This document shows positions 22,574 to 64,000 of a DNA stretch of 64,000 nt, in pieces. A model generated the notes under the pieces. The model worked only from the letters and a program-made list of their open reading frames with translations, ran no database searches and had not been told where the DNA came from. The translations under genes and the position numbers were made by a program. Source of the stretch: Nitrososphaeraceae archaeon (lineage in GTDB: Archaea; Thermoproteota; Nitrososphaeria; Nitrososphaerales; Nitrososphaeraceae); the NCBI GenBank assembly GCA_031316115.1, contig JALDRC010000003.1:62001-126000 (forward strand), in the 5' to 3' direction. How positions within the stretch are numbered: position 1 is the first letter of the stretch; the number at the start of each line of letters is the position of its first letter.

Positions 22574-23539
22574 ATGGAATACAGGGATAACAATGACTCT
22601 ACTCAGGGAAATCCAAAAAGTCCAGCATATTGTGAATTTTGTCAGAAGGATTCCATAATTTTTGACAACTCTGCTAACGAATTTGTTTGTTCGGCATGCG
22701 GTTGTGTATTAAACAATGATTCATTAAATAATGAAACCATGCAGGGTTTCATTGCACAGTCGGATTTTACAGATCGTTCTAGAACTGGAATGCCAGAGTC
22801 CTTGGCAGTCCATCACAAAGGATTATCAACTCTAATTGGAATTGGTGATACTGATGCCAGAGGGAAGGCATTACTGCCAAAGCAAAAAATGGAAATCCAA
22901 AGATTACGAACTTGGAATAGTAGGTCTCAGCTTAATGATTCGATCTCTAGAAATCTAGAAAAAGCATTAAAATATTTGAATAATTTTGGTGATAAACTAT
23001 GTCTAAATAATGCTGTGATTGAAAGTGCAGCTTACATTTATAGAAAAGCAGCAGTTAAGAAATTAGCTAAAGGTAGATCAACAATTGGGTTAGTTGGTGC
23101 TGCATTATATGCTGCTTGTAGGGAAGCATCCACACCTAAAACTATTTTAGATGTGGCTGAAATCTGTAATATATCAAGCAAAGATTTAATGTCACACTAT
23201 AAATTAATTTTGAATGAATTAGACCTCCGTATACCAGCAAGCAAAGGACCTGATTATGTAACCATAGTTTCTAACAGATTAAAGTTGAGTGAAAAAACAA
23301 AAAGAGAAGCCTTACATATACTTGCTCTTGTTCAAGAGAAAGGAATATCAATTGGAAAAAATCCTAGGGCAATTGCAGGAGCAGTTATATATTTAGCTTC
23401 TCAAACATGTGATGAATTTATCAGGCAAGTTGAAATTTGTCAAGTTGCAGATATCTCGACCGTTTCATTGAGAAAAAGATGTAAAGAAATAAGAGCATTA
23501 CCTGGCTTTGAAAATTTGGAAAAAATTCAGGATATATAG
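22574..23539 (+). CDS. tfb: Transcription initiation factor TFB
   Basis: A 321-residue archaeal TFIIB homologue that bridges TBP-TATA and RNA polymerase. The N-terminal zinc ribbon has C20, C23, C39 and C42 (YCEFCQKDS...FVCSACG). The B-reader/linker region contains DRSRTGMPESLAVHHKGLST with the conserved GxP motif. Two cyclin repeats follow (about 120-210 and 215-310), including the signature GRSTIGLVGAALYAACREA and GKNPRAIAGAVIYLASQ, and the C-terminal HTH (ISTVSLRKRCKEI). Length is normal. Nitrososphaeria encode several TFB paralogues, so it may direct a subset of promoters. A strong TATA box precedes it. Confidence 0.96.
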   Translation: MEYRDNNDSTQGNPKSPAYCEFCQKDSIIFDNSANEFVCSACGCVLNNDSLNNETMQGFIAQSDFTDRSRTGMPESLAVHHKGLSTLIGIGDTDARGKALLPKQKMEIQRLRTWNSRSQLNDSISRNLEKALKYLNNFGDKLCLNNAVIESAAYIYRKAAVKKLAKGRSTIGLVGAALYAACREASTPKTILDVAEICNISSKDLMSHYKLILNELDLRIPASKGPDYVTIVSNRLKLSEKTKREALHILALVQEKGISIGKNPRAIAGAVIYLASQTCDEFIRQVEICQVADISTVSLRKRCKEIRALPGFENLEKIQDI

Positions 23540-29079: not shown

Positions 29080-30216
29080 ATGATCAATAAAGATTCCTTG
29101 CGTTTTCAAGATGATGAAAATGAAATTAATAGATTAGATGCATGTACACATGGAGGTTTACATTCAATTGATAACATCGGTAAAATTAGATTGGATTTTA
29201 GTTCTAATATCAATCCACTGGGGATCTCAAATAAAGTAATAAAAAAAATTACAAAGAATATTAATAATATTTCATGTACCTACCCTGATCCCAAGTGCAA
29301 AGAATTAAAAAAAAAAATTTCAGAATATCTAGGAGAGGATATCACCCCAGATTGGATTACAGTAGGAAATGGTGCAACAGAACTAATACATCAGTTTGTA
29401 AGATCCTTTCCTTATAATGCAATTATCCCTATTCCCACATTTTGTGAATACGAATTAGCTGTCAGACGAAGTCAATTAAAAGTAGATTTTATCAGATATT
29501 CAGAAAATTTTCAAGTGGATTGGAAATGTCTACTGAACACATTTAAAAAGAGAGATAAAAGTATTGTATTTCTGTGCAATCCCAATAATCCTACAGGTAC
29601 AATTGTACCAATAGAAATAATAAATTCTATCCTAAATAAAATAAAAAACAAGGATACGATAATTTTTATTGATGAAAGTTTTATAGAATTTGTAAGTAAT
29701 CATAAGCAGTATTCTATGATTTCTCAGATTATAGCAACTAGCAATGTTATTGTACTCAGATCTATGACAAAGTCTTTTGGATTAGCTGGATTACGTCTAG
29801 GATATTTGGTAGCAAATCCCAATCTATTGAAAAAGATAAACAAAAACCAAATAGCATGGAATGTAAACAGTATTGCGCAGCTGGCCGGGATAGAAGCACT
29901 TAAAGATCAGGAACATTTGATAAAAGCAAAACTAATGATTGAGAAAGAAAAGAACCGAGTAAGAAAAAGAATCAAACAAACAATGAAAAATTTGAAAAGT
30001 TATGATTCAGCGGCTAATTATCTCTTGATAGAGTTAAAAGACGGCGATTCTAAAAGTTTTAGGGATAAATTATTGGATAATTTTGGAATATTAGTTAGGG
30101 ATTGCAGTAGTTTCAGAGGACTATCGGATAAGTTCATTAGGATAGCTATAAGGACTCCTTACGAGAATGATATTCTTCTTAAATCTCTTGAAGGTATGAA
30201 TAATTCTGACAACTAA
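29080..30216 (+). CDS. cobD: L-threonine-O-3-phosphate decarboxylase (CobD type)
   Basis: A 378-residue class-I/II fold PLP enzyme. PLP lysine K231 lies in RSMTKSFGLAGLRLGYL; other motifs are FLCNPNNPTG (164-173) and FIDES (196-200). The N-terminal THGGLHSI...LDFSSNINPLGIS is the hallmark that separates Thr-P decarboxylases from histidinol-phosphate aminotransferase. The product, (R)-1-amino-2-propanol phosphate, supplies the nucleotide-loop linker of cobalamin. Being first in a cobalamin operon supports this over HisC, though HisC cannot be fully excluded. The symbol follows Salmonella usage, not the Pseudomonas CobD. Confidence 0.88.
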   Translation: MINKDSLRFQDDENEINRLDACTHGGLHSIDNIGKIRLDFSSNINPLGISNKVIKKITKNINNISCTYPDPKCKELKKKISEYLGEDITPDWITVGNGATELIHQFVRSFPYNAIIPIPTFCEYELAVRRSQLKVDFIRYSENFQVDWKCLLNTFKKRDKSIVFLCNPNNPTGTIVPIEIINSILNKIKNKDTIIFIDESFIEFVSNHKQYSMISQIIATSNVIVLRSMTKSFGLAGLRLGYLVANPNLLKKINKNQIAWNVNSIAQLAGIEALKDQEHLIKAKLMIEKEKNRVRKRIKQTMKNLKSYDSAANYLLIELKDGDSKSFRDKLLDNFGILVRDCSSFRGLSDKFIRIAIRTPYENDILLKSLEGMNNSDN

Positions 30217-30267
30217 CTATCATAATACGTTTCTAAAATACCAGATAATAAAGGAGTAAAATGATAT

Positions 30268-31137
30268 TTGACAAAGGCAAAAATATTGATGATACAAGGA
30301 ACATCCTCAGGTGTAGGAAAAAGCATTTTAGTAACGTCTTTATGTAGAATTATTTCAGACCTTGGATTTCGGGTCAGTCCATTCAAAGCCCAAAATATGT
30401 CTTCTAATGTTTATAAAATTTCAAAATTTGAGCAAATTTCAAATATTCAGGCAGTTCAAGCATTTGCTGCAAGAACCAATCCAACTTGGAAAAATAATCC
30501 TATTTTATTACTTCCATTAGGAGATTATATGAGTAATGTCTTTCTCAAAGGAAAATTTTACAAAAGTATGCACGCATCGAATTATTATAGAGACTTTGTA
30601 ATTAAAACCGGATTTCCTGTAGTAATAGATGCATTAGAAACTTTAAGAAAAGACAATGATGTAATAGTAATAGAAGGTGCTGGATCTCCAGCCGAAATTA
30701 ACATTGCAAAATACGATATTGCTAATATGTTACTTGCAAAGAGAATAAATGCTCCAGTCATTCTTGTGTCAGACATTGAAAGAGGCGGTTGTTTTGCTAG
30801 TATTGTAGGAACTATGCAATTACTGAAATTCAAACATCAACAATTAGTAAAAGGGTTTTTAATAAATAAATTTCGTGGCGATAAGACTCTGCTCAAAGAT
30901 GCTATAAAATATGTAGAGAAATCCCTAAATATCACATGTTTTGGTGTTATCCCCAAGATTACTGTTTCGTTACCAGAGGAAGATTCATTGGATAGTAATA
31001 GTGACAATAGCTTCAAACAAGATGGAGAATATTCAAATGAAATCTTGGATAACCAAATAGATATTTTAGCATCGGAGATAAAAAAGAATATCAAAATAGA
31101 CTACATCTTGGAGAGGGTTTTGAAATTATCTAGATGA
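30268..31137 (+). CDS. cbiP: Cobyric acid synthase lacking the glutaminase domain
   Basis: A 289-residue protein that matches only the N-terminal ATP-binding synthetase half of CbiP/CobQ. The P-loop is GTSSGVGKS (11-19), followed by PFKAQNMSSN, EGAGSPAEINIAKYDIANM, VSDIERGGCFASIVGT and KGFLINKFRGD. It ends soon after LPEEDS, where the family's class-I glutamine amidotransferase domain (about 200 residues with a catalytic Cys) would begin. The stop overlaps the next gene by 4 bases, so no lost domain lies downstream. Start is TTG. It should amidate adenosylcobyrinic acid a,c-diamide, with free ammonia or a separate glutaminase as nitrogen source; this is inference. Confidence 0.88.
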   Translation: MTKAKILMIQGTSSGVGKSILVTSLCRIISDLGFRVSPFKAQNMSSNVYKISKFEQISNIQAVQAFAARTNPTWKNNPILLLPLGDYMSNVFLKGKFYKSMHASNYYRDFVIKTGFPVVIDALETLRKDNDVIVIEGAGSPAEINIAKYDIANMLLAKRINAPVILVSDIERGGCFASIVGTMQLLKFKHQQLVKGFLINKFRGDKTLLKDAIKYVEKSLNITCFGVIPKITVSLPEEDSLDSNSDNSFKQDGEYSNEILDNQIDILASEIKKNIKIDYILERVLKLSR

Positions 31138-32114
31138 TAGTCTCAGTTAGCATCACATTAATTCTAATAATATCCCTTATCATCGATATTTTATGTGGTG
31201 ATCCAAGAAATCGATATCATCCTGTCGCATGGATAGGTAAAATGACAAAATATTTTATTCCAAAATTAAAAATAGATAAAGATGATAAAAAAGAATTTGA
31301 GAAAAAAAGAGGAACTGTTTTTACTGTTTTTTTTGTACTATCATCAGTAATTTTGATACATTTATCCTTGAGCTTTTTGTGTCATTATTATTACTTTATA
31401 TTTTTTATAGTATCGGTTTACTTACTGTATAGCAGTATTTCTATAAAGAATATGGAAAATCATATAAATATGATTGTAGACGCTTTGCGTAAAAAAGACA
31501 TTATTGCTGCGCGTAAAAAACTATCCATGATCGTAGGAAGAGATACCAAGGATTTAGAGGAACAACATGTAATATCAGGGGCAATAGAATCTGTTGCAGA
31601 GAGCACGGTAGATGGTATAATTTCACCTATATTCTATTTTTCAATTTTTGGTTCTTCTGGGGCATTTGTATTCAGAATCATAAATACATTAGATTCAATG
31701 ATAGGATATAGAGACAATTATTTTATAGATATAGGATGGATGGCTGCTAAATTTGATACGTTTGCGAACTACATTCCAGCTAGACTAACTTCTATTTTCA
31801 TAATTGTCGCATCATTTTTCATAAAAGCCAATTGGAAAAATTCTATAAAAATACTGAAAAGCGATAGACATGAAACACCCAGTCTCAATTCAGGTTATCC
31901 AATGTCAGCGATGGCTGGTGCATTAAATGTGAGGTTAGAAAAGATTAACTTTTATCAAATAGGTATCCCAGCTGAACAATTGACTGTAGAAAAATGCAAA
32001 GTTGCAATAAAAATAATGAAGATTGCAGTGGTTTTATTTTGTTTGTCAGTTTCTATCCCCTTTATATTATTGCTAGGTTTGGTTAAGTGGTGGAATATTT
32101 TATTTGGCATTTGA
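31134..32114 (+). CDS. cbiB: Adenosylcobinamide-phosphate synthase
   Basis: A 326-residue membrane enzyme that joins aminopropanol phosphate to adenosylcobyric acid. Family motifs include DILCGDPRNRYHPVAWIGKM near the N-terminus, VGRDTKDLEEQHVISGAIES with AESTVDGIISPIFYF, and NTLDSMIGYRDNYFIDIGW, GYPMSAMAGALNVRLEK. About five or six hydrophobic helices are visible. It overlaps cbiP by 4 bases and cobS by 11 bases, which indicates translational coupling within one operon. Length is normal. Confidence 0.95.
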   Translation: MIVSVSITLILIISLIIDILCGDPRNRYHPVAWIGKMTKYFIPKLKIDKDDKKEFEKKRGTVFTVFFVLSSVILIHLSLSFLCHYYYFIFFIVSVYLLYSSISIKNMENHINMIVDALRKKDIIAARKKLSMIVGRDTKDLEEQHVISGAIESVAESTVDGIISPIFYFSIFGSSGAFVFRIINTLDSMIGYRDNYFIDIGWMAAKFDTFANYIPARLTSIFIIVASFFIKANWKNSIKILKSDRHETPSLNSGYPMSAMAGALNVRLEKINFYQIGIPAEQLTVEKCKVAIKIMKIAVVLFCLSVSIPFILLLGLVKWWNILFGI

Positions 32115-32853
32115 TAGACTTTTCTCAGTATTATCATTTTTAACAGTTATACCAACAAGAGGCAAGAAATATGAAATAGAGTATGTTGCAAAAAATATGT
32201 ATTTGTTTCCTATTGCAGGCCTCATAATAGGAATTATTATTGGATTCGTCTCTTTTGTTATATATGATTACGTCCATGGAATATTACTAGGCTTTATAAT
32301 AACTGCAATGTTAATAGGATTCACAGGATTGCATCATACTGATGCCTTGTCAGATCTTGCTGATGGATTGATGGTAAGGGGGTCTAAAGAGGAGAAACAC
32401 AGGGCAATGGCAGATCCTAGAAATGGAACGGCGGGAAGTGTAGTGATAGTTTTCTACATAGTAGGAACGGTAATATTATTTTCATATCTAGATGACAAAT
32501 CACAGTTAATTTCTCTGATTATTATTGCAGAGATATTATCAAAATACAGCATGATTTTACAATGTTATATTGGGAAATCGGCTTGGGAGGGGTTGAATAC
32601 ATGTTTTGTTACCCAAATGAAGAATAATAAAAAAATGATTATATCTACAATCTTGATGGCATTGTTATTAATAATCTTTGGATATGATATCTATCAGATA
32701 ACCATAGCAATTATGACAATGTTATTTGTTACCTTTTTTCTTTTGTTAATTTCTCAGAGAGCATTGGGTGGAGTTTCTGGAGATACTATTGGGGCTACTA
32801 ATGAATTATCAAGATTTTTAATTTACTTTATGTATGTTATCCTGATAAAGTAG
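32104..32853 (+). CDS. cobS: Adenosylcobinamide-GDP ribazoletransferase (cobalamin synthase)
   Basis: A 249-residue integral membrane protein that joins the activated cobinamide to alpha-ribazole (or its phosphate) to complete cobalamin. It starts at a TTG inside cbiB (MAFDRLFSVLSFLTVIPTRG, the typical CobS N-terminus). The Asp-rich motif is intact: HHTDALSDLADGLMVRGSKE, followed by MADPRNGTAGSV. Six or seven hydrophobic helices follow. The order cbiB-cobS-cobY fits the final steps of the pathway. Confidence 0.95.
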   Translation: MAFDRLFSVLSFLTVIPTRGKKYEIEYVAKNMYLFPIAGLIIGIIIGFVSFVIYDYVHGILLGFIITAMLIGFTGLHHTDALSDLADGLMVRGSKEEKHRAMADPRNGTAGSVVIVFYIVGTVILFSYLDDKSQLISLIIIAEILSKYSMILQCYIGKSAWEGLNTCFVTQMKNNKKMIISTILMALLLIIFGYDIYQITIAIMTMLFVTFFLLLISQRALGGVSGDTIGATNELSRFLIYFMYVILIK

Positions 32854-32860
32854 AGTAATA

Positions 32861-33514
32861 ATGCAAAGAAATATTCCAAAAATCATAGGTGTAATTATGT
32901 GTGGTGGGAAAAGCTCTAGGATGAGGAAACATTACCAGACTGAAAAAACTATGATCAGGCTAGGAAATAAACTTATGGTGGAATATATAATAGATAGTTT
33001 AAAAAATACGAAGTTTTTTTTTAAAATAGTATTAAATACAACTAAACATACTGCTAGAACGAAAGCTTTCTTAGTAAAAAAATATGGAATGGATGTCCCG
33101 GATATAGAATTCTTTGAAACAGGGGGGAATGGATATTCACTAGATTTGAAATCACTGCTTTTAAAATATAGTGACTATATCATCTTTGTTTTCCCTGCGG
33201 ATTTACCATTATTATCTCTATATGATATAGAAAATATATACAAGTCGTGCAAATTCCAATATCCATGTAATTCAATTATAATAGAAAAATCCTTTGTAGA
33301 GAGTTTAGGAATAAAACCGAGTGTTTCCTTTACTTATAGAAACAAAGATTATTGTTATGCAGGTATTGAAATATTCAATCCTAGAAAAATATCTAATCTG
33401 GAAAATAACATCCCAGAGAGATTTATCGTGAAAAATCAAATTGGTATTGCAGCGAATGTTAATCTAAAAACAGACCTAGAAATTGTACGAAGGATGATAC
33501 AAACAAGAATCTGA
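32861..33514 (+). CDS. cobY: Adenosylcobinamide-phosphate guanylyltransferase
   Basis: A 217-residue nucleotidyltransferase of the archaeal CobY type, which replaces bacterial CobU. The nucleotide-binding loop IMCGGKSSRMRK is at about 13-24 and the metal-binding FPADLPLL in the middle. It transfers GMP from GTP to adenosylcobinamide phosphate to form the substrate of CobS. It begins 7 bases after cobS. A MobA/IspD-like role is less likely given this context. Confidence 0.9.
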   Translation: MQRNIPKIIGVIMCGGKSSRMRKHYQTEKTMIRLGNKLMVEYIIDSLKNTKFFFKIVLNTTKHTARTKAFLVKKYGMDVPDIEFFETGGNGYSLDLKSLLLKYSDYIIFVFPADLPLLSLYDIENIYKSCKFQYPCNSIIIEKSFVESLGIKPSVSFTYRNKDYCYAGIEIFNPRKISNLENNIPERFIVKNQIGIAANVNLKTDLEIVRRMIQTRI

Positions 33515-53323: not shown

Positions 53324-53980
53324 TTAAACTGAAAATTTTATTCCTATTTTTTTAAAAACATCTTTCCAATTTCCGATTTTCATCAAAGAAACCAAATCTT
53401 CCTTGGTATCTATATCAAAGGTCAAATTTGGATCAGTCAATTGCTTAACAAATACATTTCTGAATCTGGCCTCTAACAAATGATTATAATAACTATTATT
53501 GTCATAATGTGTTTTTATAATATTATGAGGTTTACGTAGCAAGATATTCGTTCCATCATATCTTTTCGATGGACAAATTATAACACCATTTGAAAAATCA
53601 TTTGATATTTCACATAGATCGTTGATATCCTTTGAACTAATCAAAGGTAAATCGATAGGTATTACAAGACTTGCATCAATATTTTGAGTTTCTAAGTAAG
53701 AATCAGCTGTTGAAATTGCATTATTAACTCCTTCCCGATGATCTGTAATATTAGTAATTTTTTTGTGATTGCTTAGATGTTGGAAATTTTCAGTATTTGA
53801 AATGACTAGAATCTCGGATATTAAAGATGACTTTTCTAACTTTTTGATAGTTAAATCAAAAAAGTAGTTTACAAGAACCATTCTTTCAAACGGATCTAAT
53901 ATAGAAGATAATCTTGACTTGGAATTTCTAAGATTTTTTATTGGAACTATTGCTACAATCTTCAATTTTGGTTTTACCAT
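53324..53980 (-). CDS. cofC: 2-phospho-L-lactate guanylyltransferase
   Basis: A 218-residue nucleotidyltransferase of coenzyme F420 synthesis. It activates 2-phospholactate (or PEP) with GTP for CofD. Motifs: VAIVPIKNLRNSKSRLSSIL at the start, the SLVIPIDLPLISSKDI metal site and CPSKRYDGTNILLRKP. It overlaps cofD by 7 bases, so the two are one translational unit. Confidence 0.93.
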   Translation of the reverse strand: MVKPKLKIVAIVPIKNLRNSKSRLSSILDPFERMVLVNYFFDLTIKKLEKSSLISEILVISNTENFQHLSNHKKITNITDHREGVNNAISTADSYLETQNIDASLVIPIDLPLISSKDINDLCEISNDFSNGVIICPSKRYDGTNILLRKPHNIIKTHYDNNSYYNHLLEARFRNVFVKQLTDPNLTFDIDTKEDLVSLMKIGNWKDVFKKIGIKFSV

Positions 53981-54915
53981 ATGGTTGAGATGAATTTTGC
54001 TAGATTAACTTCATCTCGTTTATTTCTCATGATGATGTTTGTATTGTAAGTCTTCACATTGATATTCATGATTGAATCTGCAAAATTCAAGTCTGAATTA
54101 TGAACTACCAATTTGCGGATAAATTTTGAATAGAATTTTGCTATCCCCAATGGGGAAATTTCAATGTTTTTGGATTTAAGATATTTACCTGCTGGTCCGC
54201 TAATAGGTTTTCGTCCGATAATAGGAGAAATAGCTAGAATCTTATCTTTATTGGATTTTAATTCTTCATACACAGATTTAATTGATATAATAGGACCGAT
54301 ACTCGATACGGGGTTCCCTGGAGCTATTATTATCGATCTAGATGAACGTAATGATTTTATAACTTGCTTATTTGATTTTGCATTTTCAATGTTATTGTAA
54401 TATACGTCATGAACTCTAGGTTTTCCTTTAAACTTTACCCAAAAATCTTGAATATTGAGGTCACCTTTATCAGTAACGATTCTTGTTTCAATTGGAGTGT
54501 CTGTAGCTGGTATCACATCATTTTGAATTCGATATTTTCTACAAATATACCTAGTCGCTTGTGACAAAGATAAACCTTCATTGATTAATTTTGTTCTAAT
54601 AATATGGGTTATTAAATCCTTATCTCCAATTTTAAACCAACTATCTTCATCTAACTTTTTCATATTTTTTATAAAATTAAATGAATCGTCCTTTATTCCC
54701 CAACCACGTTTCTTGTCGAGTATTCCTGCTAGTCCATAAATAGTTGTGTCGATATCAGGACATATATACAAACCATGAAGCCAAAAATTATCGCCAACGT
54801 TGACTATTATAAATAATTCGGAGGTAATGGAGCTTAAACCACGAATTAACTTAATGGAACCAGTTCCTCCAGCTAGAACTGTTATCAAATAGCAAAAGAG
54901 ATTAAGAAGATACAT
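53974..54915 (-). CDS. cofD: 2-phospho-L-lactate transferase
   Basis: A 313-residue enzyme that transfers the phospholactyl group to Fo, forming F420-0. Motifs: ITVLAGGTGSIKLIRGLSSI, NVGDNFWLHGLYICPDIDTT, YGLAGILDKKRGWGIKDDSF and IIAPGNPVSSIGPIISI. A TATA-like box at 54941-54950 sits about 30 bases before the ATG at 54915, favouring that start; a TTG at 54888 would start directly at ITVLAGG. It is the first gene of the cofD-cofC pair. Confidence 0.94.
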   Translation of the reverse strand: MYLLNLFCYLITVLAGGTGSIKLIRGLSSITSELFIIVNVGDNFWLHGLYICPDIDTTIYGLAGILDKKRGWGIKDDSFNFIKNMKKLDEDSWFKIGDKDLITHIIRTKLINEGLSLSQATRYICRKYRIQNDVIPATDTPIETRIVTDKGDLNIQDFWVKFKGKPRVHDVYYNNIENAKSNKQVIKSLRSSRSIIIAPGNPVSSIGPIISIKSVYEELKSNKDKILAISPIIGRKPISGPAGKYLKSKNIEISPLGIAKFYSKFIRKLVVHNSDLNFADSIMNINVKTYNTNIIMRNKRDEVNLAKFISTIW

Positions 54916-56104: not shown

Positions 56105-56299
56105 TCTTTATTTTCTTTTTAATTTTTGGATTAATTATTTTTTAGATTAAAATGGATTGTTAATTTTTTGATCGTCAATAAAATTTTATTATAGTTAGCA
56201 CTATTCAGTCTCTTTTAGCACTATATATATAAGTAACTATAAGATATAATGTTTACAAAGTGATATCAAACTTTTTTTTCTTAGGTAGGGTCTTCAAAA

Positions 56300-57169
56300 A
56301 TGGTTTACATAAGAATTAAACGTATCAAAAATCACGACTATGCATATCTGGTAAAAAATACATGGATTAACAAAAAACCTAAACAGACCATAGTTAAATA
56401 TCTAGGAAATGTTTCTCGTTTAAAAATAGAAGATATTCCTGAAGAATATATAACTGATCAAATAAGAACATTTCTTCAACGTGTCAATCGAAATACCAAT
56501 GAACCTGAAATTTATGACATAAAGCTTCAAGATAACATATTCAATCTGTTAAAGGATCATGACATTAGTAAGCTAACCAAACTTTATCAGTCTATAGGTG
56601 ATTTGGATCTGGTCGATTTTTATGAAAGAATGATTATTCCAGTATTACATAAAATTGGTGATCTTTGGGAAAATGGAAAATTGGATGTTGCTACTGAACA
56701 TGTATGCAGTAACGCAACCTCAAATCTAATTAGTAGTATTAATTTAGACAAGACATATATTCAAAGCAAAAATAAAGGAAAAATTGTATTGTGCACTCCA
56801 GAAGGAGAGTTACATAACATAGGTTGTGAAATTTTAGGTTCTCTCCTGATGGAAAGAGGTTATAAGATATTTGATATTTCACCATCAATGCCTAATCAAT
56901 CCATCGCAGAATACATTCACGAGATCAAACCGGATTTAACAATCATCTCCTTTACATTAAAGGAGTGTGTAAATAGCGTTGTTAGATTAATAAACGAAAT
57001 AAACCAAAAAGACAAAAATTTTAGGATAGTGGTGGGAGGTACCGGTTCAAGTTTGTTAAAAAATAAGATAACAAATAACAGAAATATCAATAATAGATAT
57101 ACTTTTGTTTTAGAGGATGTAACAATTAGATATTTTATAAAAAATATTAAAAAATTTCTAAAAGATTGA
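56300..57169 (+). CDS. CarH-like B12-binding protein with non-MerR N-terminus
   Basis: A 289-residue protein in three parts. Residues 1-60 (MVYIRIKRIKNHDYAYLVKN, then KQTIVKYLGNVSR) look like a small beta domain also seen at transposase N-termini. Residues 80-150 form a four-helix cap with W123-x9-E133-H134 (IGDLWENG, LDVATEHVC), the W-x9-EH signature of CarH/LitR sensors. Residues 160-285 form a Rossmann B12 domain with lower-ligand H172 in EGELHNIGCEILG and VVGGTGSS. The position that is His132 in Thermus CarH is E124 here. No enzyme domain is attached, so a corrinoid sensor is likely. MerR-type DNA binding is absent. Confidence 0.82.
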   Translation: MVYIRIKRIKNHDYAYLVKNTWINKKPKQTIVKYLGNVSRLKIEDIPEEYITDQIRTFLQRVNRNTNEPEIYDIKLQDNIFNLLKDHDISKLTKLYQSIGDLDLVDFYERMIIPVLHKIGDLWENGKLDVATEHVCSNATSNLISSINLDKTYIQSKNKGKIVLCTPEGELHNIGCEILGSLLMERGYKIFDISPSMPNQSIAEYIHEIKPDLTIISFTLKECVNSVVRLINEINQKDKNFRIVVGGTGSSLLKNKITNNRNINNRYTFVLEDVTIRYFIKNIKKFLKD

Positions 57170-62773: not shown

Positions 62774-63263
62774 TTAGAAATTTTTATTAAGTTTTTTATT
62801 TAAAATTATTGGAACATTCTTCGATATGAATTAAAAATTCCAGGCAGAAAGATTTTAACAAAATTCGTTGTTTATAAAAACCTTAATTGAAATAAAATTA
62901 TTTTTACAGTCTTAAATAAATTCAAGTAATCTATCATAGTATCTATTGATACTGATTCTAATATATAAAAGATAAAATTCCATTCAAAATATATGATACA
63001 ATCTGATGTAATCAAATACTTAAGTAAATTAAACTATTGATTTTTTAACAAATTATGAGATTGGAGAAAATGTTTTAACAAATAAGAATTGAGAATATAG
63101 TTAAAAAATGGTTTATTAACTATCTACGCAGTTATCAACATAGAAATTAAAGGTAATTCATACATGATGAAATAATTGTAATAGGATATTTATTACCTAG
63201 TGCTAACCTCATTAATGCGATTTAAGATTTTTAAGCAGGTTATAAGAAATAATAGTCAATCAT
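62774..63263. other. Intergenic region
   Basis: About 490 AT-rich bases between divergent genes, expected to hold both promoters. No gene or RNA was recognised. Confidence 0.5.
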
Positions 63264-64000
63264 ATGGTTCAATTTCTTATACTGCAAATTTTAATAGTTT
63301 CGTTAATATTCTTAACTTTTGCCACCACTTTAAAATTTGGCTATTCTGAACCAATTATTAATGATCCTTCTTTAAGTGTACAAATTATAGCAAAAGATTT
63401 TTCCAAACCAACAGGAATGGTATTTTTAGATAACAACATTATGGTTATTGAAAAAGACGGAGATGTAAAATTAATTTCAGAGGATACCAAAGAAGAATCT
63501 ACATTATTACAATTCGATGTTGATACTAAAAGCGAAAGAGGATTGTTAGGAATTGAAACAAACGGAAATGATGTTTTTTTTTATCTCACTGATGCAAGTT
63601 CAGATCCAATTAAAAATAGAGTTTTTAAATACTTGTGGAATGGAAATGAATTGTCTAACCCCAAATTGATATTAGATCTTCCTGCGTTACCAGGACCCAA
63701 TCACGATGCTGGAAAACTAGTTCTAGAAAAAAATAATCAAAATGGAATAACGGAAAATCTTTATGTAATAATTGGTGATCTTAAACATGATGGAATACTT
63801 CAAAATCAAAAATCGGAGGATGAACCCGATGATACAGGAGTAATATTCCGAATCAATGCATTAGATGGTTCACCAGTAGACAATAATCCGTTTATTGCAA
63901 ACTCTGATTTTTCAAAATATTTTGCATACGGAATTAGAAATAGTTTTGGCTTAACATTGGATCCAGAATCTGGTTATCTATGGGAAACTGAAAACGGTCC
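63264..64000 (+). CDS. PQQ-dependent sugar dehydrogenase-type protein (5' part)
   Basis: The first 245 codons of a secreted soluble glucose/sorbosone dehydrogenase-type propeller, cut by the window edge. A signal peptide (about 4-24) comes first. Motifs: FSKPTGMVFLDNNIMVIEKD, ERGLLGIET, PGPNHDAGKL, NLYVIIGD and finally YGIRNSFGLTLDPESGYLWE, then TENGP at the edge. These are the repeat motifs of the family; PNHDAGKL corresponds to the catalytic-base HxxG motif with His in NHDAGKL. In archaea the cofactor and substrate are uncertain because PQQ synthesis is not shown here. Confidence 0.9.
   Translation, partial: MVQFLILQILIVSLIFLTFATTLKFGYSEPIINDPSLSVQIIAKDFSKPTGMVFLDNNIMVIEKDGDVKLISEDTKEESTLLQFDVDTKSERGLLGIETNGNDVFFYLTDASSDPIKNRVFKYLWNGNELSNPKLILDLPALPGPNHDAGKLVLEKNNQNGITENLYVIIGDLKHDGILQNQKSEDEPDDTGVIFRINALDGSPVDNNPFIANSDFSKYFAYGIRNSFGLTLDPESGYLWETENG

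Follow-up and report, generated by a model that had tools for sequence, protein, structure and literature searches.

The proteins closest to the one described here are light-sensing B12 proteins of the CarH/LitR kind, CtMerR and the photocobilins. The published light signature of cobalamin-binding domains, the SignatureFinder class, consists of the motifs GxxW, EH, GxxH and GxxxP (PMC11796333). The EH pair contacts the adenosyl group in both CarH and CtMerR (PMC11796333, the source also of the names and numbering of the CtMerR motif residues used here). In CarH operators, direct repeats stand in tandem and overlap with the promoter (PMC8156234). In ammonia-oxidising archaea (AOA), photolyase marks the epipelagic members, and light inhibits ammonia oxidation in sunlit waters (PMC9239080). 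The literature searched contained neither a description of how AOA sense light nor an earlier report of an archaeal B12 photoreceptor, so that such a protein appears to be undescribed in archaea, as the original prediction for this locus had supposed.

The window, a stretch of 64,000 nucleotides from an organism that groups with the Nitrososphaeraceae, TH1177 group, contains a gene that we consider likely to encode an autoregulating protein of the Nitrososphaerales (thaumarchaea) that acts as both photoreceptor and transcription factor and depends on adenosylcobalamin (AdoCbl), judging from sequence, predicted fold and genome context. On balance, it also seems probable that this gene represents a B12 photoreceptor family unreported in archaea, with a DNA-binding module of its own that is shared with IS1634 transposases and an operator code of tandem TTAGCACTA repeats abutting TATA. 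Such a family would control a light regulon, with DNA photolyase among its members, in a large part of the ammonia-oxidising archaea and in related marine lineages. The original prediction noted neither the tandem operator nor the spread of the family through the lineage, and its coordinates omit the promoter (56195-56232) that holds the operator. The features of the locus are collected in Table 1.

Table 1. Features of the candidate photoreceptor locus and related elements (window coordinates unless another contig is named)
Feature	Position	Strand	Basis or remark
Candidate sensor-regulator gene	56300..57169	+	ORF call: 289 aa (stop included), ATG start
N-terminal domain, aa 1-60	56300..56479	+	putative DNA-binding module; predicted three-stranded antiparallel sheet
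Four-helix cap (B12-binding_2, aa 79-144), bears G120-x-x-W123-x9-E133-H134	56534..56731	+	Pfam, alignments, AlphaFold2
W123 (upper-face Trp) and E124 (TtCarH His132 position)	56666..56671	+	alignments
E133-H134, EH pair	56696..56701	+	alignments; PMC11796333
Rossmann B12-binding domain, aa 160-256	56777..57067	+	Pfam
G169-E-L-H172, lower axial His (GxxH signature)	56804..56815	+	alignments
S194-P-S-M-P198, GxxxP counterpart	56879..56893	+	alignments
Operator repeat 1, TTAGCACTA	56195..56203	+	motif match
Operator repeat 2, TTAGCACTA, 20 bp from repeat 1	56215..56223	+	motif match
TATA-like box (TATATATAA), abuts repeat 2	56224..56232	+	sequence; TATA-like stretch after repeat 2 conserved in other sensor promoters
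Cobalamin genes (CobD-like aminotransferase, CobQ-like, CbiB, CobS, CobY-like)	29080..33514	+	about 22.8 kb from sensor
Second tandem operator of the window's genome	L204:8367-8624 (G000:C17)		20 bp before a 70-aa ORF

Both Pfam B12 domains of the protein exceed their cut-offs, and the chain ends at residue 289, directly past the Rossmann domain (Pfam, AlphaFold2). The AlphaFold2 model, computed with 45 family members as input, has a mean pLDDT of 91.3 and runs from three strands (residues 2-9, 12-23 and 26-37) through the helical cap to the Rossmann domain. Pfam finds no MerR domain in the protein, and the model places a three-stranded sheet at the N-terminus instead, in agreement with the claim that the MerR domain had been replaced. 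The CarH-type core that had been proposed from W123-x9-E133-H134 and H172 also stands. In a phmmer alignment these residues (W123, E133, H134 and H172) coincide with W156, E166, H167 and H204 of CtMerR (PDB 8jbs); P198 aligns with the proline of the CtMerR GxxxP motif and E124 with Arg157. A profile of the family searched against the PDB gave photocobilins (8j2x/8j2w, 1e-21), CtMerR (8jbs, 8e-20) and AbDPcob (8j2y, 2.5e-17) as the top four of 31 matches. Structure comparison, which the original prediction had proposed, gave ranks 1-7 of the Foldseek search to CtMerR and SasPcob, with a TM score to 8jbs_B of 0.80 by target. The window protein carries GxxW, EH and GxxH of the light signature together with SxxxP, its SPSMP having Ser in place of the Gly of GxxxP. 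Many Nitrosopumilaceae carry all four motifs; the first position of GxxxP is Gly in these and Ser or Ala elsewhere, while the Pro is nearly invariant. The best NCBIfam model is CarH (NF052513), at 55.5 bits and under its 400-bit cut-off. The absence of both the MerR domain and His132, together with a score under the curated CarH cut-off, sets the protein outside the CarH family, although its mode of working is most likely CarH-like.

The core belongs to a widespread family. A relative of the sensor is present in 49 of 151 genomes of the order (E 5e-30 or better). Scanning genome contigs with the family alignment gave 165 relatives, whereas a single-sequence query of the same contigs returned none; 80 were kept, all of them thaumarchaeal. 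These come from Nitrososphaeraceae, Nitrosopumilus, Nitrosopelagicus, Nitrosarchaeum, Nitrosotenuis, Nitrosocaldus, Nitrosocosmicus and Nitrososphaerales such as UBA223, and none was found on the viral contigs searched. The W-x9-EH signature is not a product of chance, since GxxW-x9-EH is kept in all 77 full-length relatives and two alignments show no variation at G120, W123, E133, H134 and H172. W-x9-EH is missing from three MetH-type B12 proteins of the genus to which the window belongs. The N-terminal segment is as well conserved as the sensor part, nearly all relatives in the 49 genomes aligning from residue 1, which answers positively the question raised with the original prediction of whether this domain persists in orthologues. 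Its invariant residues are M1, K7, Y14, V18, W22, Q29, Y34, L35, G36 and P47.

The upstream regions of the sensor genes have a recurrent organization, in which a tandem direct repeat, TTAGCACTA...TTAGCAYTA, lies directly before a TATA-like stretch. At least one candidate operator site occurs within 150 bp in 87 of 95 sensor promoters, against 5.9 (maximum 12) in shuffled sequences. Close tandem pairs, practically missing from the shuffles, have a spacing of 19 bp in 30 of the 34 counted. The pair in the window, both copies perfect, is the sole exact tandem pair of TTAGCACTA in its 3.16-Mb genome. A survey of 40 genomes, chosen as 26 with and 14 without a sensor, yielded 19 exact pairs, one microsatellite included, and 12 of them lie directly upstream of sensors. 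Neither the 14 sensor-less genomes nor the reversed-pattern control contained any. Candidate sites also precede genes for DUF1722 (38/39), FAD oxidoreductase (34/39) and an exported-protein family (55/60), compared with 200 of 1207 other genes. Photolyase genes have an upstream candidate site in 4 of 21 cases, and several sit behind genes having one; the photolyase promoter of the window's genome shows no clear TTAGCACTA site. The second-best pair of that genome (one mismatch, 20-bp spacing) lies beside an SRPBCC-TIGR01777 gene, and a TIGR01777 homologue adjoins the sensor in another genome (G032). Since the search of the window's genome at 20-bp spacing gave three matches against four in the reversed control, only the matches with zero and one mismatch were used. 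At 19-bp spacing with up to three mismatches, one match stood against five in the reversed control, and it was treated as noise. A third, single copy of TTAGCACTA is found in the window at 63198-63206 (-), 58 bp before an ORF starting at 63264 that looks sugar-dehydrogenase-like by eye; this copy may be due to chance. Repression in the dark is the sign of regulation suggested by this layout, since a protein seated on repeat 2 would cover BRE/TATA.

The N-terminal domain is a candidate for binding these repeats. Residues 1-37 include nine K/R and one D/E. The likeness to transposase N-termini that had been noticed from the sequence is substantiated by hhalign, which matches the domain to eight IS1634-type transposase N-termini with 92% probability (E 6e-7). 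The comparison was made with bacterial IS1634 proteins because the genus of the window yielded a single full IS1634 transposase, and this one begins without the N-terminal segment. Profile comparison with the N-terminus of a thaumarchaeal Fic protein gave 88%. This Fic protein (L156:757-1644, -) shares the three-stranded module of the sensor, and the module thus appears to be mobile between protein families. Searches with the N-terminus of Pfam, NCBIfam and PDB profiles returned chance matches only, and Foldseek with the domain alone gave no significant match, solved DNA-binding domains included; for this reason no named DNA-binding fold is claimed. DNA binding by the domain would fit its charge, position, relatives and operator.

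The lack of a significant match to a known DNA-binding domain could also mean that the sensor acts through a partner, in the manner of AerR-CrtJ, and that a different factor binds TTAGCACTA. TFB, HTH_45 or MEDS genes near the sensor in some lineages would provide such factors. However, no single other regulator always adjoins the sensor, whereas the operator occurs in step with the sensor from genome to genome and, in most sampled lineages, lies at the promoter of the sensor gene itself. The N-terminal domain, moreover, has a basic charge, a conservation equal to that of the sensor part and a kinship with transposase N-termini. We regard action through a partner as unlikely, if the strongest of the competing accounts, and direct binding by the sensor as the better reading.

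The genes that accompany the sensor point to light. Of the 151 genomes of the order, 14 encode a PF03441 photolyase, and every one of these also carries the sensor; the photolyase is absent from 35 of the 49 sensor genomes. The hypergeometric probability of this co-occurrence is 3e-8 with phylogeny ignored, and physical linkage is for that reason the stronger argument. A sensor lies no more than 10 kb from ten of the 14 photolyases and no more than 2.5 kb from eight; the linkage extends over two families and several genera, and its probability by chance is about 1e-13, even if two sensors are allowed per genome. The window's sister in the tree (L003, G116) has its photolyase 434 bp from the sensor; the genome of the window has it on a different contig. 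Neighbours that recur among the 101 sensor loci include an NAD(P)-binding oxidoreductase (65 loci, at a median of 470 bp), DUF1722/YbgA (36), TFB (35), an FAD oxidoreductase of the amine-oxidase/CrtI kind (34, at a median of 5 bp) and an SRPBCC-like protein (27, a weak family match). Similar assemblages are found in bacteria. The T. thermophilus island brings together carH, crtB, phr, crtI and a DUF523-DUF1722 gene, and the ChrR cluster of Pseudoalteromonas has the order DUF523/DUF1722, phrB, NTF2, SDR and FAD oxidoreductase. The Pseudomonas LitR region includes phrB, a short-chain dehydrogenase and an FAD oxidoreductase (PMC9758184). The neighbours of the archaeal sensor mirror these three light regions, and the context indicates a role in light responses.

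Some further observations concern genes in or near the sensor loci. The TFB paralogue lies a few genes from the sensor (L036, L045 and L048 are examples), and TFB genes in sensor loci have a TTAGCACTA-like upstream site in 32 of 53 cases; TFB may act as an alternative factor for initiation within a light cascade. A TFB gene is also present in the window, at 22574-23539 (+), 33 kb from the sensor. The F420 genes CofC and CofD are located at 53324-54915 (-), about 1.4 kb from the sensor and in the opposite direction. Photolyases of the 8-HDF type use an F420-like antenna, and it is conceivable that CofC and CofD supply a photolyase antenna in connection with the sensor. At L176:8405-10270 (G138), a second, diverged sensor paralogue adjoins MEDS-domain and HTH_45 genes, with a photolyase about 2.2 kb away; MEDS is among the domains fused to photo-B12 domains in bacteria (PMC11796333).

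The binding of B12 that the protein would require also suits a regulator of cobalamin status, which would sense the presence or absence of AdoCbl to tune genes, light being incidental. The cobalamin operon that had been reported about 23 kb from the sensor is indeed in the window (Table 1), and apo and holo CarH differ in DNA binding (PMC8156234). Nevertheless, the recurring neighbours that can be annotated are photolyase, DUF1722 and oxidoreductases, and no gene for cobalamin synthesis or uptake was seen among them. The adenosyl-contacting EH pair and the Trp are invariant, and a sensor of ligand level would need no photo-signature. This explanation is improbable in our judgment. AOA make cobalamin anyway, and thus the distance to the operon is not functional evidence; we read the cobalamin genes as the context of chromophore supply, outside the switch itself. 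The CobQ-like protein (30268-31137, +, 289 aa) matches only 1-245 of the 480 positions of cobyric acid synthase models, the second half being missing.

The original prediction was correct in noting that the position of the second His is not conserved. It is E124 in the window protein and A, S, E, Q, D, M, R, K, V or L in relatives, with no His in any of the 77. From this loss it had proposed redox or ligand sensing, and the lack of a residue for bis-His ligation does count for a cobalamin-based sensor of redox state or reactive oxygen that induces photo-oxidative repair genes; oxidative-stress factors such as ChrR/ECF sigma can run bacterial regulons of the same genes. However, proven green-light photoreceptors have Arg (CtMerR), Gln (SasPcob) or Tyr (AbDPcob) at the position of TtCarH His132 (PMC11796333), and the missing second His is therefore no argument against light. 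The signature of the adenosyl pocket is retained, and the sensor is present in every photolyase genome. With these photoreceptors and the linkage to photolyase and light-regulon genes, that part of the prediction is weakened, and we give redox sensing little credence. A corrinoid protein of a methyltransferase system, which would share both Pfam B12 domains and has weak matches to MtbC and MtgC models, is very improbable, as the MtaC/MtbC/MtgC models score 32-54 bits against cut-offs of 215-450 and are all missed widely, corrinoid proteins and MetH score below the photoreceptors in the PDB profile search (31 matches), and the annotated recurring neighbours of the 101 loci include none of the methyltransferase partners that had been named as evidence against a light sensor.

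For the photoreceptor reading, we infer AdoCbl binding, a response to light, DNA binding through the N-terminal domain and repression in the dark. In the dark, AdoCbl would be held between the cap and the Rossmann domain, with H172 below and W123, E133 and H134 above, and the protein would form an oligomer. Its basic three-stranded N-terminal domains would hold the tandem TTAGCACTA repeats beside TATA/BRE, thereby blocking TBP/TFB. Green-blue light would break the Co-C bond, with loss of the adenosyl group, and the pocket would relax as it does in CtMerR and SasPcob, with no bis-His ligation. Release of the DNA would then derepress the sensor gene and photoprotection genes (photolyase/DUF1722, NAD(P)- and FAD-oxidoreductases and TIGR01777). 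For ammonia-oxidising archaea, the analysis offers a candidate photoreceptor with its presumed chromophore, along with a predicted operator and genes that may form its regulon. If the proposal is true, it extends B12 photobiology to archaea, joins the photo-B12 domain to a new DNA-binding module and provides a compact green-light switch working at a TATA promoter.

In comparison with known systems, the locus resembles CarH/LitR of Thermus thermophilus, Myxococcus and Pseudomonas in its sensor core, in a tandem-direct-repeat operator at the promoter (PMC8156234) and in the company of photolyase, DUF1722 and a phytoene-desaturase-like or other FAD oxidoreductase. It differs in having a basic three-stranded domain for the MerR winged helix, no His132 and an archaeal TATA promoter, and its operator repeat is TTAGCACTA, about 19-20 bp apart, as opposed to the 11-bp nAnnTnnACAn of CarH/LitR. 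The IS1634 transposases and the archaeal Fic protein are alike in the N-terminal 40-50 residues (by profile), which are joined there to DDE or Fic domains. The photocobilins SasPcob and AbDPcob (PMC10979010) are the best profile match of the sensor core and similarly lack the second His, but their biliverdin-binding and diguanylate cyclase domains are absent from the window protein. CtMerR of Chloracidobacterium thermophilum (PDB 8jbs/8jbt) is the best Foldseek match; the Trp, the EH pair, the lower His and the Pro are aligned, and neither protein has the bis-His residue. Unlike the window protein, CtMerR is bacterial and has a MerR-type DNA-binding domain, and the two are 21% identical over the aligned core.
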